From contig JAJPKF010000024.1 of assembly GCA_021323865.1 (NCBI GenBank), forward strand, positions 90,270-154,269: a stretch of DNA of 64,000 nt. The letters are read 5' to 3'. The position numbers and the translations under genes were made by a program. Position 1 is the first letter of the stretch. Every line of letters begins with the position of its first letter. The notes below the pieces were generated by a model that searched no databases, was not told the origin of the DNA, and saw only the letters and a list, made by a program, of their open reading frames with translations. This document shows, piece by piece, positions 34,925-41,659 of the stretch. The DNA is from Pseudomonadota bacterium (lineage in GTDB: Bacteria > Chloroflexota > UBA5177 > JAJPKF01).

Positions 34925-36055
34925 TCACTTGTGGACCGTCGGAGCCGCCGCGCCGACTGACCCCCTTCGCAGCGCAGCCCTCTTTGTAGCTTGCCGCAGA
35001 CTCTCGCCGTATGGGGGACGGGCGACTCCCGCTTCAGTGACTATTGCGGTGATGCGTCTTGCCGGTGTTATGTCGAAGGCGGGGTTCATGGCAGGGACTC
35101 CCAAGGGCGCGACAGGGATCCCGCAAAATGAAGTTACTTCGCGAGGGTCGCGCTCCTCAATCGGAATGAGAGTGCCATTGGTCGTTACAAGATCTAGTGA
35201 AGACGTTGGAGCCGCCACATAGAACGGGATCTCATGCGCCGCGGCCAACACAGCCAGGGAATACGTGCCAATCTTGTTTGCGATGTCGCCATTGGCTGCG
35301 ACTCGATCTGCCCCAACAACCACGGCGTCTACGTCGCCTCGGCTCATAGCGTATCCGGCCATTCCGTCGGTGAGGATGGTTACTGGTACCCCAAGCACCG
35401 ACAATTCCCAGCCGGTAAGACGAGAACCTTGCAGGAGGGGGCGCGTTTCGTCCACGAGCACGGAGACGTTTGGGTCGCGCTCGTGGGCCTTGCGGATGAC
35501 CCCAAGGGCGGTCCCGTACCCTGCTGTCGCAAGAGGGCCAGTATCGCAGTGAGTGAGCACGTGTGATCTGCCTCGGAGCAGGTCCGCCCCGAACTCCGAC
35601 AGGCGCATGTCGGCTTCTACCGATTCTTTGTGAATCGTCTGTGCCTCCTTGATCAAGGCAGTTTGGATGGCATTGATACCAACCTGACCACCAAGACTTT
35701 GGAATGTGCTTGCCATTCGCTCTACTGCCCATTCGAGATTCATCGCCGTGGGGCGCGCACGAGTGAGAATTTCGCCGGCACGCGTCAGGCGTTGAGCAAG
35801 GTCGCGCCGATCTACCGCATGAAGCCCGGCCAGCGCCATCCCATAGGCTGCCGTTATTCCGATGGCGGGAGCGCCCCGCACCTTCATCGCCCGTATGGCT
35901 TCTGCTACCTCGGCGGCGGAATCACACGAGATGACGACTGAGCGAGCTGGAAGCTGAGTCTGGTCAAGGAGCTCGAGCGCTTCGCCTGTCCAGCAGACAG
36001 GTCGAAAAGGCGGGCCGGTGCCTCCGGGCAGGTCTTTCCATGCTCTCGGAGTCAG
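34925..36055 (-). CDS. mtnA: MtnA-type aldose-1-phosphate isomerase, putative 5-fluoro-5-deoxyribose-1-phosphate isomerase (5' end shifted)
   Basis: The family isomerises 5-methylthioribose-1-phosphate to the ribulose form; in fluorometabolite pathways a homologue acts on 5-fluoro-5-deoxyribose-1-phosphate. Seen: MKVRGAPAIGITAAYGMAL, the catalytic Cys in VLTHCDTGPLATAGYGTALG and the catalytic Asp in VVVGADRVAANGDIANKIGT. Homology continues upstream of the first ATG (35887) without a stop: GPPFRPVCWTGEALELLDQT is the normal MtnA N-terminus. That frame has no ATG, GTG or TTG, only CTG at 36055. An ATG overlapping the stop of the preceding gene (36067-36069) would enter this frame if the run of four C at 36062-36065 had one more base. 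A frameshift or a sequence error is therefore likely; the coordinates given begin at the CTG. Confidence 0.85.
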   Translation of the reverse strand: MTPRAWKDLPGGTGPPFRPVCWTGEALELLDQTQLPARSVVISCDSAAEVAEAIRAMKVRGAPAIGITAAYGMALAGLHAVDRRDLAQRLTRAGEILTRARPTAMNLEWAVERMASTFQSLGGQVGINAIQTALIKEAQTIHKESVEADMRLSEFGADLLRGRSHVLTHCDTGPLATAGYGTALGVIRKAHERDPNVSVLVDETRPLLQGSRLTGWELSVLGVPVTILTDGMAGYAMSRGDVDAVVVGADRVAANGDIANKIGTYSLAVLAAAHEIPFYVAAPTSSLDLVTTNGTLIPIEERDPREVTSFCGIPVAPLGVPAMNPAFDITPARRITAIVTEAGVARPPYGESLRQATKRAALRRGSVGAAAPTVHK

Positions 36056-36065
36056 CGACCGCCCC

Positions 36066-40551: not shown

Positions 40552-40555
40552 TGAG

Positions 40556-41659
40556 CTACCTCCCTCGCCAAGTGATCTCGGATGGTGCTTGCTGCCGGCC
40601 CCGGTGGCCCACACCGCGGTCGACCCCGTTGGGAGCGAGACTGCAGGTCACACGCGCTCCGGGACCAATATTGTCTGCCTTAGCTAGATCGGCCATATTC
40701 TGTGCGAGAGAAAGATATCCCCGGCTATTGATGTAGATGCCGGTCTCACCTCGACCGCCGAAATCCGCAAACGTCCGTTCCAACGGATGTTCGTATAGGA
40801 CACCTTTCACCGTAACGCGAAGCAGTGTTCCGTACTCGATGCCAAGGCTTGCAAGGTCATCGCGGAAAATGTCAGTCCAGACGTTGCCATATGGCAGATC
40901 AATATCAATGACTACACCCTCTATGGACCCGTCTTCTATCGAGGCTACGGGGTGGGCGAAACGGACTATCGCTGGGTCGTCTAACCGACGGCCCACCGCC
41001 GCCAGCGGATAGCCGGCAGCCAGATGTGCCGACGGTATTGCTACCATTTCCCTGCTATAGAATGTTGGCTCAGGCTTTCTCGGTATAACGTCAGTACTCG
41101 TGACCTCGTAGGCCTCCACATACCGATGCTCCTCGATGACCCTAGTGAGTATGCCGTTGTTCGGCGCCACGTATATGTAGGAGCCATCGGCCCGCGGAAA
41201 CCCGTCGCCTGATCCTGCCCACTGTCCGCGAGCGCCACCAAGTGCGGCTCGTTCGATCCGGAGCGCGATGGAGTGGGTCTCCGTCCCGGTAGCAGGATAG
41301 GTGGTGGTGGCGAAGACCGTCCCCTCCGGGAAGAAGCGCGGGAGATCGACGATTAGGCGGCCACCCTGATCTATGTCGAAAGGGGTCATGGTATGACAGA
41401 CATCGACGATAGTAAGAGATGGGCATATGCTCAGCATTAGCCCCTTGCACTGGGCAACGGAGTCGTCCGTGTCGCCCAGGTCGCTCATGAACGCCAGAAT
41501 AGGTCGACTTCCGGCGTCGTTGTTGCCGCCGCGTGCCTTCTCAACAAGCATGGACTCCAAACCTCCACCGTCCATCAGCAGGAACTGATCGAAGAGGCGT
41601 TTTTCAAGGTCCCCAGGCCTCGGCCCTTCATCACTCATATCACGTTCTTTTCCCGACAT
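40556..41659 (-). CDS. flA: fluorinase (5'-fluoro-5'-deoxyadenosine synthase)
   Basis: 367 residues, DUF62/SAM-hydroxide-adenosyltransferase superfamily. Residues 53-230 closely follow the S. cattleya fluorinase as I recall it: PILAFMSDLGDTDDSVAQCK, PRFFPEGTVFATTTYPATGT and TFYSREMVAIPSAHLAAGY. It has the fluorinase-specific loop GGARGQWAGSG...RADGS (~141-160), absent from chlorinases and hydrolases. Counterparts of Asp16, Tyr77, Thr80, Phe156, Ser158, Asp210, Asn215, Trp217, Ser269 and Arg270 are conserved (60, 121, 124, 200, 202, 254, 259, 261, 312, 313). Differences: Trp50 is Phe94, Phe213 is Tyr257, Arg277 is Gln320, Ala279 is Met322. About 40 extra N-terminal residues and ~25 at the C-terminus are unusual. 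The reaction is SAM + fluoride to 5'-fluoro-5'-deoxyadenosine + methionine. First gene of the operon; GGGAAGG precedes the ATG, but a later start is possible. Confidence 0.93.
   Translation of the reverse strand: MSGKERDMSDEGPRPGDLEKRLFDQFLLMDGGGLESMLVEKARGGNNDAGSRPILAFMSDLGDTDDSVAQCKGLMLSICPSLTIVDVCHTMTPFDIDQGGRLIVDLPRFFPEGTVFATTTYPATGTETHSIALRIERAALGGARGQWAGSGDGFPRADGSYIYVAPNNGILTRVIEEHRYVEAYEVTSTDVIPRKPEPTFYSREMVAIPSAHLAAGYPLAAVGRRLDDPAIVRFAHPVASIEDGSIEGVVIDIDLPYGNVWTDIFRDDLASLGIEYGTLLRVTVKGVLYEHPLERTFADFGGRGETGIYINSRGYLSLAQNMADLAKADNIGPGARVTCSLAPNGVDRGVGHRGRQQAPSEITWRGR

Follow-up and report, generated by a model that had tools for sequence, protein, structure and literature searches.

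A predicted 4-fluorothreonine operon on a tRNA-integrated element in a probable Chloroflexota genome

We analysed a 64,000-nt stretch of DNA (hereafter the window), which is the end of a 154-kb contig (JAJPKF010000024.1) from a draft genome of 2.96 Mb in 30 contigs (92% complete). The window holds a 21.7-kb element integrated at a tRNA-Met gene, and five genes of this element probably convert fluoride and S-adenosylmethionine (SAM) into 4-fluorothreonine and keep this amino acid out of proteins. They lie at 34925-41659 on the minus strand in the order fluorinase, deacylase, AAA+ protein, transaldolase and isomerase, tightly spaced, with the deacylase beginning at a TTG 4 nt past the fluorinase stop (gene starts are those preferred from sequence inspection), and all five frames are open across the homologous length. 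An initial annotation of this DNA had described this order, with a YbaK-type deacylase in second place, and the same close spacing, and both were borne out once all five genes had been located. Its enzyme identities and its reading of a fluorothreonine pathway are supported by curated-family scores and trees. We regard this pathway as likely, with production predicted from sequence and with an operon that is not self-sufficient.

We hypothesize the following route. The fluorinase would make 5'-fluoro-5'-deoxyadenosine (5'-FDA), and a methylthioadenosine (MTA) phosphorylase of the host, coded elsewhere and proposed here because the five genes include no phosphorylase, would cleave it to 5-fluoro-5-deoxyribose-1-phosphate (5-FDRP). 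The operon isomerase would then make the ribulose phosphate, and fluoroacetaldehyde would be provided by a class II aldolase, be it the zinc-type domain of the transaldolase itself or the single further member of that family found in the host. The transaldolase would exchange fluoroacetaldehyde with the side chain of threonine to give 4-fluorothreonine, and the FthB-type deacylase would hydrolyse fluorothreonyl-tRNA. The least certain step is that of the AAA+ protein, which may act as an ATP-driven accessory of the pathway, either a regulator or a chaperone. Carbon-fluorine bond formation is known from very few organisms, and the fluorometabolite clusters characterised in the papers cited here are mostly actinobacterial.

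Enzymes of the operon

The fluorinase scores 450 bits against the curated equivalog family TIGR04507 (cut-off 400), and it matches fluorinases in the PDB at 427-439 bits versus 161-190 bits for chlorinase-type chains. A quick tree, in which long hydrolase branches were flagged, was built from 70 rows: 59 homologues (a rank-thinned set from 120 listed), 3 chlorinase-type chains and 8 hydrolase-type proteins including the host's own. The 59 fluorinase-like rows form one group (support 95 by the Shimodaira-Hasegawa-like approximate likelihood ratio test, SH-aLRT), whereas the chlorinase-type (99) and hydrolase-type rows (99) stand apart; the host's own SAM-hydrolase-type gene (contig C25), elsewhere in the genome, is on a different branch. 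The closest partner of the element's protein is P0002 (80% identical over 78% of the query; pair support 84), and both belong to a nine-row group (support 93) without the seven labelled actinobacterial rows, that of Streptomyces cattleya among these. The fluorinase-only loop, at about residues 92-114 of the S. cattleya fluorinase FlA, has 27 residues in all 59 fluorinase-like rows and 3-9 residues in the 11 others; this loop, absent from chlorinases, is present in the element's protein. Compared with the 3 chlorinase-type and 8 SAM-hydrolase-type rows, the protein groups with fluorinases, and the tree and the 27-residue loop rule out the hydrolase or chlorinase identity that the initial annotation had named as its alternative. 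Nine of the eleven substrate-contact residues given for FlA (PMC9234330) are kept (D16, D21, T80, F156, Y157, S158, N215, S269 and R270), and W50 is replaced by F, as in 44 of the 120 rows. No viral contig was confirmed for the fluorinase, and the plasmid search gave seven records with best identities of only 23-28%.

The transaldolase joins a serine hydroxymethyltransferase (SHMT) domain (PF00464) to an aldolase domain (PF00596) and scores 759 bits against the curated equivalog family TIGR04506 (cut-off 650). In the enzyme of Streptomyces sp. MA37, mutants of Lys237, Asn484, His551 and His598 lose activity, and His553 and Glu573 were modelled (PMC7162832). The corresponding K232, N513, H579, H625, H581 and E600 are all kept, as matched via spacing and the aligned S. 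cattleya row, the MA37 sequence itself being outside the alignment; E561 is kept as well, which makes seven of seven key residues. The enzyme departs at 2 of 116 conserved columns and ranks 17th of 96 rows. In a tree of 64 rows, the two-domain proteins form one group (50 rows, the element's included; support 100), inside which the element's enzyme groups at 100 with P0238, P0239 and P0240. An ordinary SHMT, the outcome against which the initial annotation had set its reading, is ruled out by this grouping, apart from 14 single-domain SHMT-like rows that include no classical SHMT of known function. The family extends beyond Actinobacteria, since two-domain enzymes are also listed for Candidatus Kentrum and for two metagenome-assembled genomes (MAGs), one of Gemmatimonadaceae and one of Micrarchaeota.

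The deacylase scores 65.5 bits against PF04073 (cut-off 25.5) and only 45.7 bits against TIGR00011, the Cys-tRNA(Pro) deacylase family (cut-off 153), and since it falls so far under the latter cut-off it is not an ordinary YbaK. It is 66-68% identical to a gene beside the S. cattleya transaldolase, 385 bp away on the megaplasmid (match to match). The open reading frame (ORF) that follows this homologue, in a record without annotation there, looks by eye like a permease; fthB and fthC would be expected to lie in this way, with a deacylase followed by a permease near the transaldolase. According to PMC11295145, FthB belongs to this superfamily and is a fluorothreonyl-tRNA deacylase related to ProXp-ST1, and both FthB and FthC are described as conserved features of the fluorothreonine locus (PMC7408626, PMC7162832). 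When the S. cattleya gene is taken as fthB on its position and on PMC11295145, the high identity makes the element's protein most likely FthB, a predicted fluorothreonyl-tRNA deacylase. The actinobacterial comparison covered 10 fluorinase loci with up to 10 kb on each side: a deacylase homologue was found in all five loci with a transaldolase in the fetched stretch, cut by the locus edge in one of them (L017), and in one of the five without. In Actinopolyspora mzabensis (L016), an FthB-type gene lies near the fluorinase, and the listed transaldolase is on another contig. The deacylase family is not confined to fluorometabolism: relatives at about 40% identity and above also occur on plasmid records of other bacteria, whereas a match to 80% or more of the transaldolase is limited there to the two S. 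cattleya records. Elsewhere in the host genome lies a separate gene of the same Pfam family (C27), and no PADLOC model matched the deacylase.

The last two enzymes also bear on the end product. A working fluorinase could lead to something other than 4-fluorothreonine, such as fluoroacetate, a fluorosugar or a chlorinated analogue: FlA reportedly acts as a chlorinase too (cited in PMC9234330), and in MA37 the same intermediates also lead to other fluorometabolites (PMC7408626). However, a two-domain transaldolase and an FthB-type deacylase within one operon point to fluorothreonine, and no fluoroacetyl-CoA thioesterase was found among the five genes in Pfam and TIGR family scans. We consider another end product quite improbable.

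The third gene had been annotated as an AAA+/V4R protein, of which the AAA+ part was supported. P-loop and Walker B motifs are visible by eye, the Pfam AAA match is weak (E 0.0067, under the cut-off), and the predicted model, moderate in quality (mean predicted local distance difference test score 65.8), matches the AAA+ fold; the 50 listed of its 1693 PDB matches are AAA+ ATPases of many kinds, with no single function picked out. The V4R half fared less well. Pfam gives no V4R match in the protein or, at E up to 1, in four full-length homologues; one under-cut-off match (E 0.0044) was obtained among two C-terminal pieces of homologues, and the source name of homologue P0122 is 'predicted hydrocarbon binding protein'. 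Within the 301 genomes of the phylum compared, the full-length protein occurs only in this one, and in two others only its ATPase part is matched. Of the five relatives nearest to it (P0122-P0126), two appear to lie together with a fluorinase and a transaldolase, as in the element, on contigs of 7,060 bases (P0006, P0240 and P0125) and 78,607 bases (P0060, P0244 and P0123), a shared contig being taken from equal contig size and at least one common source; no fluorinase or transaldolase contig match was found for the other three. The association of the AAA+ protein with fluorinase and transaldolase is probably real, and such a protein is not named in the excerpted descriptions of fluorometabolite clusters. 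Searches with it confirmed no viral contig and returned no plasmid and no PADLOC model. One relative, P0126 (Acidobacteriota), matches over 90% of its length and lies on a 448,697-base contig, a length shared by no listed fluorinase or transaldolase row, and many shorter proteins, mostly of 375-485 aa, share only about half of the AAA+ protein (38052-40022, minus strand).

The isomerase scores 413.6 bits against TIGR00512 (model positions 2-334 of 335; cut-off 279). The ORF given for it in the initial annotation, starting at 35887, is N-terminally short, because the homologous frame continues upstream as far as the transaldolase gene's end. A tree of 34 rows pairs the element's isomerase with the MtnA of the host as sisters (99/97); five same-order relatives branch separately, and three isomerases of actinobacterial clusters lie far away. 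The identity of the element's isomerase is 57% to the host copy versus 43-44% to the cluster enzymes. Since the branches are long, the split between element and host copies is old. The host's second MtnA gene, on contig C17, adjoins an MTA phosphorylase-type gene, and next to it an adenine phosphoribosyltransferase-like ORF and a kinase-like ORF were recognised by eye.

Steps outside the operon and doubts about activity

The operon had been called complete-looking in the initial annotation. The five genes are indeed present, but the term is too strong, because a 5'-FDA phosphorylase, a separate aldolase and an exporter are not among them. Homologues of the host phosphorylase occur in 8 of the 10 actinobacterial fluorinase loci. 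In the host genome itself they were found in three places, none on the element's contig, so that a host MTA phosphorylase would be needed for this step. Nor need the transaldolase's aldolase domain be the only class II aldolase of the host, as the genome contains one more match, within an ORF of 690 aa. A fluoride exporter gene of the CrcB family is present in the host; the FthC-type exporter is not among the five genes, and no search for FthC was made in the rest of the genome.

Besides the missing phosphorylase and exporter, several features of the cassette weigh against its making 4-fluorothreonine. In the fluorinase, R277 is replaced by Q, which is unique among the 120 fluorinase-like rows, and A279 by M, as in 2 of the 120 rows (the element's included); both are contact positions. 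The C-terminal RNAA motif (PMC12871659) reads QNMA in the element's protein; as the exact motif occurs in only 98 of the 120 rows, it is not universal in fluorinase-like proteins. Across the 131 columns kept in at least 95% of the 120 rows, the fluorinase departs at six, R277 among them (A279 is outside the 131), and it is tied as the most deviant of the 120 (median 0). Its end branch is long (0.57, sister 0.14), and so is that of the transaldolase (0.88). The upstream isomerase frame offers no ATG, GTG or TTG, the first candidate taken being CTG, so either CTG is used or the start is disturbed. Finally, none of the 10 actinobacterial fluorinase loci holds the AAA+ protein in the stretch that was fetched. 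Because of the tree and the loop together with R277Q, A279M and the column departures, the protein is, as judged from its sequence, a fluorinase in its ancestry, with contact positions that hold unusual residues.

The main rival explanation is that of a latent or decaying cassette, in which the genes come from a working fluorothreonine cluster and this copy is relaxed or partly broken, making little or no fluorometabolite. The fluorinase departures, the two long end branches, the isomerase without an ordinary start codon and the lack of an exporter among the five genes would all fit such a state, and a latent fluoroacetate/4-fluorothreonine pathway has been claimed for Nocardia brasiliensis (PMC3999930). 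On the other hand, all five frames are open, the tight spacing is kept, and the transaldolase retains its key residues and nearly all conserved columns. Doubt arises above all from the odd fluorinase residues and from the isomerase start, and for this reason we leave the latent cassette as the main rival, unlikely though not to be dismissed lightly. Production of 4-fluorothreonine is still the reading that we prefer. As a natural variant (R277Q, A279M), the fluorinase would, through its activity, put to the test which residues fluorination needs.

The element, its host and the origin of the operon

The tRNA-Met gene at 20551-20626 is the only tRNA found in the window. A 45-nt direct repeat of its 3' end, with copies 21,669 bp apart and similarity that ends sharply at both sides, brackets a tyrosine integrase and the whole operon (Table 1), in agreement with the initial annotation, which had placed the operon between attachment repeats on a tRNA-integrated element. 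A sigma-like protein is also encoded between the repeats, and the gene set is presumably that of an integrative mobilisable element. The GC content is 65.4% left of the tRNA, 59.4% inside the element and 62.3% to the right. Integrases 32-46% identical to that of the element were found in 18 of 40 relatives (E at most 1e-40; own genome excluded), the closest genomes available for comparison being of the same order and another family. No fluoride riboswitch or other RNA was found near the operon, the only matches being the tRNA and a weak one (E 0.22) over the right repeat, and promoter and terminator scans gave results within the spread of shuffles.

Table 1. Positions of the element's features in the window and the evidence for each.
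Feature	Position	Strand	Evidence
Fluorinase (5'-fluoro-5'-deoxyadenosine synthase)	40556..41659	-	TIGR04507, PDB fluorinase matches, tree, loop
FthB-type (INS superfamily) deacylase, predicted fluorothreonyl-tRNA deacylase	40060..40551	-	PF04073; identity to S. cattleya neighbour gene
AAA+ ATPase with weakly V4R-like C-terminal part; putative pathway accessory	38052..40022	-	Homologue family, AAA+ fold matches
Fluorothreonine transaldolase (SHMT domain and class II aldolase domain), TTG start	36066..38033	-	TIGR04506, catalytic residues, tree
MtnA-type isomerase, predicted 5-fluoro-5-deoxyribose-1-phosphate isomerase	34925..~36055	-	TIGR00512, sister to host MtnA
tRNA-Met gene, insertion site of the element	20551..20626	+	ARAGORN; Rfam tRNA 73 bits
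Left copy of 45-nt attachment repeat (tRNA 3' end)	20582..20626	.	Repeat comparison
Right copy of 45-nt attachment repeat, one mismatch, orphan tRNA 3' end	42251..42295	.	Repeat comparison
Tyrosine recombinase (integrase), likely integrates the element	22671..24071	-	PF00589 82 bits
AAA_22 / TrwB-like coupling ATPase, likely transfer gene	26069..27979	-	PF13401 33.7 bits (cut-off 27), PF10412 21.1 (cut-off 20.5)
Replic_Relax family protein, likely replication or mobilisation	27883..28566	-	PF13814 28.9 bits (cut-off 25.3)
Serine recombinase adjoining the operon	33379..34794	-	PF00239, PF07508, PF13408

The host phylum is probably Chloroflexota. Seven same-phylum genomes (1.4-1.9 Mb) have 20-30 reductive dehalogenase matches each (7 of 7), and such counts are typical of Dehalococcoides and its kin. 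By searching 400 genomes of the phylum for each enzyme, a fluorinase over the TIGR04507 cut-off was found in one, this genome, and likewise a transaldolase over the TIGR04506 cut-off; 22 other genomes match mainly the SHMT half of TIGR04506 at lower score. This solitary occurrence would also be expected if binning or assembly had placed an actinobacterial contig in the genome. However, the operon is enclosed by tRNA gene repeats within a single contig of 154 kb, the GC content of the element is below that of its flanks, the isomerase is sister to this genome's own, the fluorinase falls outside the labelled actinobacterial group, and the window's fluorinase protein is listed on two contigs, the longest of 163 kb. 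An artefact of this kind is thus already largely refuted and, in our judgement, very improbable; the tRNA repeats and the isomerase placement rule out a chance or mis-binned cluster.

Since the salvage isomerase of the host itself is the sister of the element's isomerase in the tree, we regard the operon as a mosaic and not as a binning error: on sequence comparison, the fluorinase and transaldolase are apart from labelled actinobacterial rows, and the isomerase came from the lineage of the host or from a close relative of it. The initial annotation had held that the ability travels horizontally. This is supported for the fluorinase and transaldolase, because neither has a member at its cut-off in the other 399 genomes of the phylum, but not for the isomerase, given its host-copy sister. 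We propose, tentatively and with slightly less than even confidence, that the element brought a portable fluorothreonine operon into Chloroflexota, swapped in an isomerase of the host lineage and borrows the host's MTA phosphorylase, with the AAA+ protein as a new working part. Pardo et al. (2022) reportedly mined non-actinobacterial fluorinase candidates, perhaps including one from Chloroflexi, and because of this we do not claim the first sight of a Chloroflexota fluorinase. No such element appeared in the excerpts of literature on fluorinase with Chloroflexi/Chloroflexota, horizontal gene transfer or genomic island; a possible recent gain or loss of the fluorinase gene between two Streptomyces strains has been described (PMC8622039).

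Comparison with known systems shows that the pathway itself is familiar, whereas its genetic setting is new and one part has been added. The fl/fth loci of S. cattleya (FlA, transaldolase, FthB and FthC) are alike in content, the fluorinase being 67%, the transaldolase 50% and the deacylase 66-68% identical. In S. cattleya, however, the transaldolase and deacylase genes are on the megaplasmid pSCAT, where the fluorinase search had no match, whereas here a single cluster on an integrative element has an isomerase and AAA+ protein added and holds no phosphorylase, exporter or fluoroacetyl-CoA thioesterase among its five genes. The nob cluster of N. brasiliensis (L017) likewise unites a fluorinase, a transaldolase and a 5-FDRP isomerase (PMC3999930), but it has a phosphorylase and regulators (PMC3999930), and its isomerase falls with those of two further actinobacterial clusters, in contrast to the element's, which groups with the host MtnA. 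The enzyme Fme of Methanosaeta sp. PtaU1.Bin055 is also a fluorinase from outside Actinobacteria (PMC9234330); it is without the extra motif and 50.34% identical to FlA (PMC9234330), whereas the element's fluorinase has the loop. If the host is a member of Chloroflexota, a compact operon in an integrase-bearing element would help to explain the scattered occurrence of fluorinases and fluorothreonine transaldolases. It also suggests that the pathway carries its protection against mistranslation along and, if true, would make one of biology's rarest chemistries portable cargo.

Some further genes were noted in and near the element. The serine recombinase gene (33379-34794, minus strand) is directly downstream of the operon; the operon may formerly have formed a mobile unit of its own within the tRNA-borne element. 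Three ORFs at 29832-33098 (plus strand; 529, 305 and 235 aa) have no Pfam or PADLOC match, the last of them, of 235 aa, resembling a receiver-domain protein by eye. A protein kinase-like gene at 21233-22627 (minus strand) gave many PADLOC matches (mad6 and PD-T4-6 models), and the coupling ATPase (26069-27979) matches PADLOC mad8 at 44.5 bits; both may be mere family resemblance. Outside the element, an ORF at 44878-46380 (plus strand) without a Pfam match contains a 195-nt direct repeat whose two copies are 72% identical.

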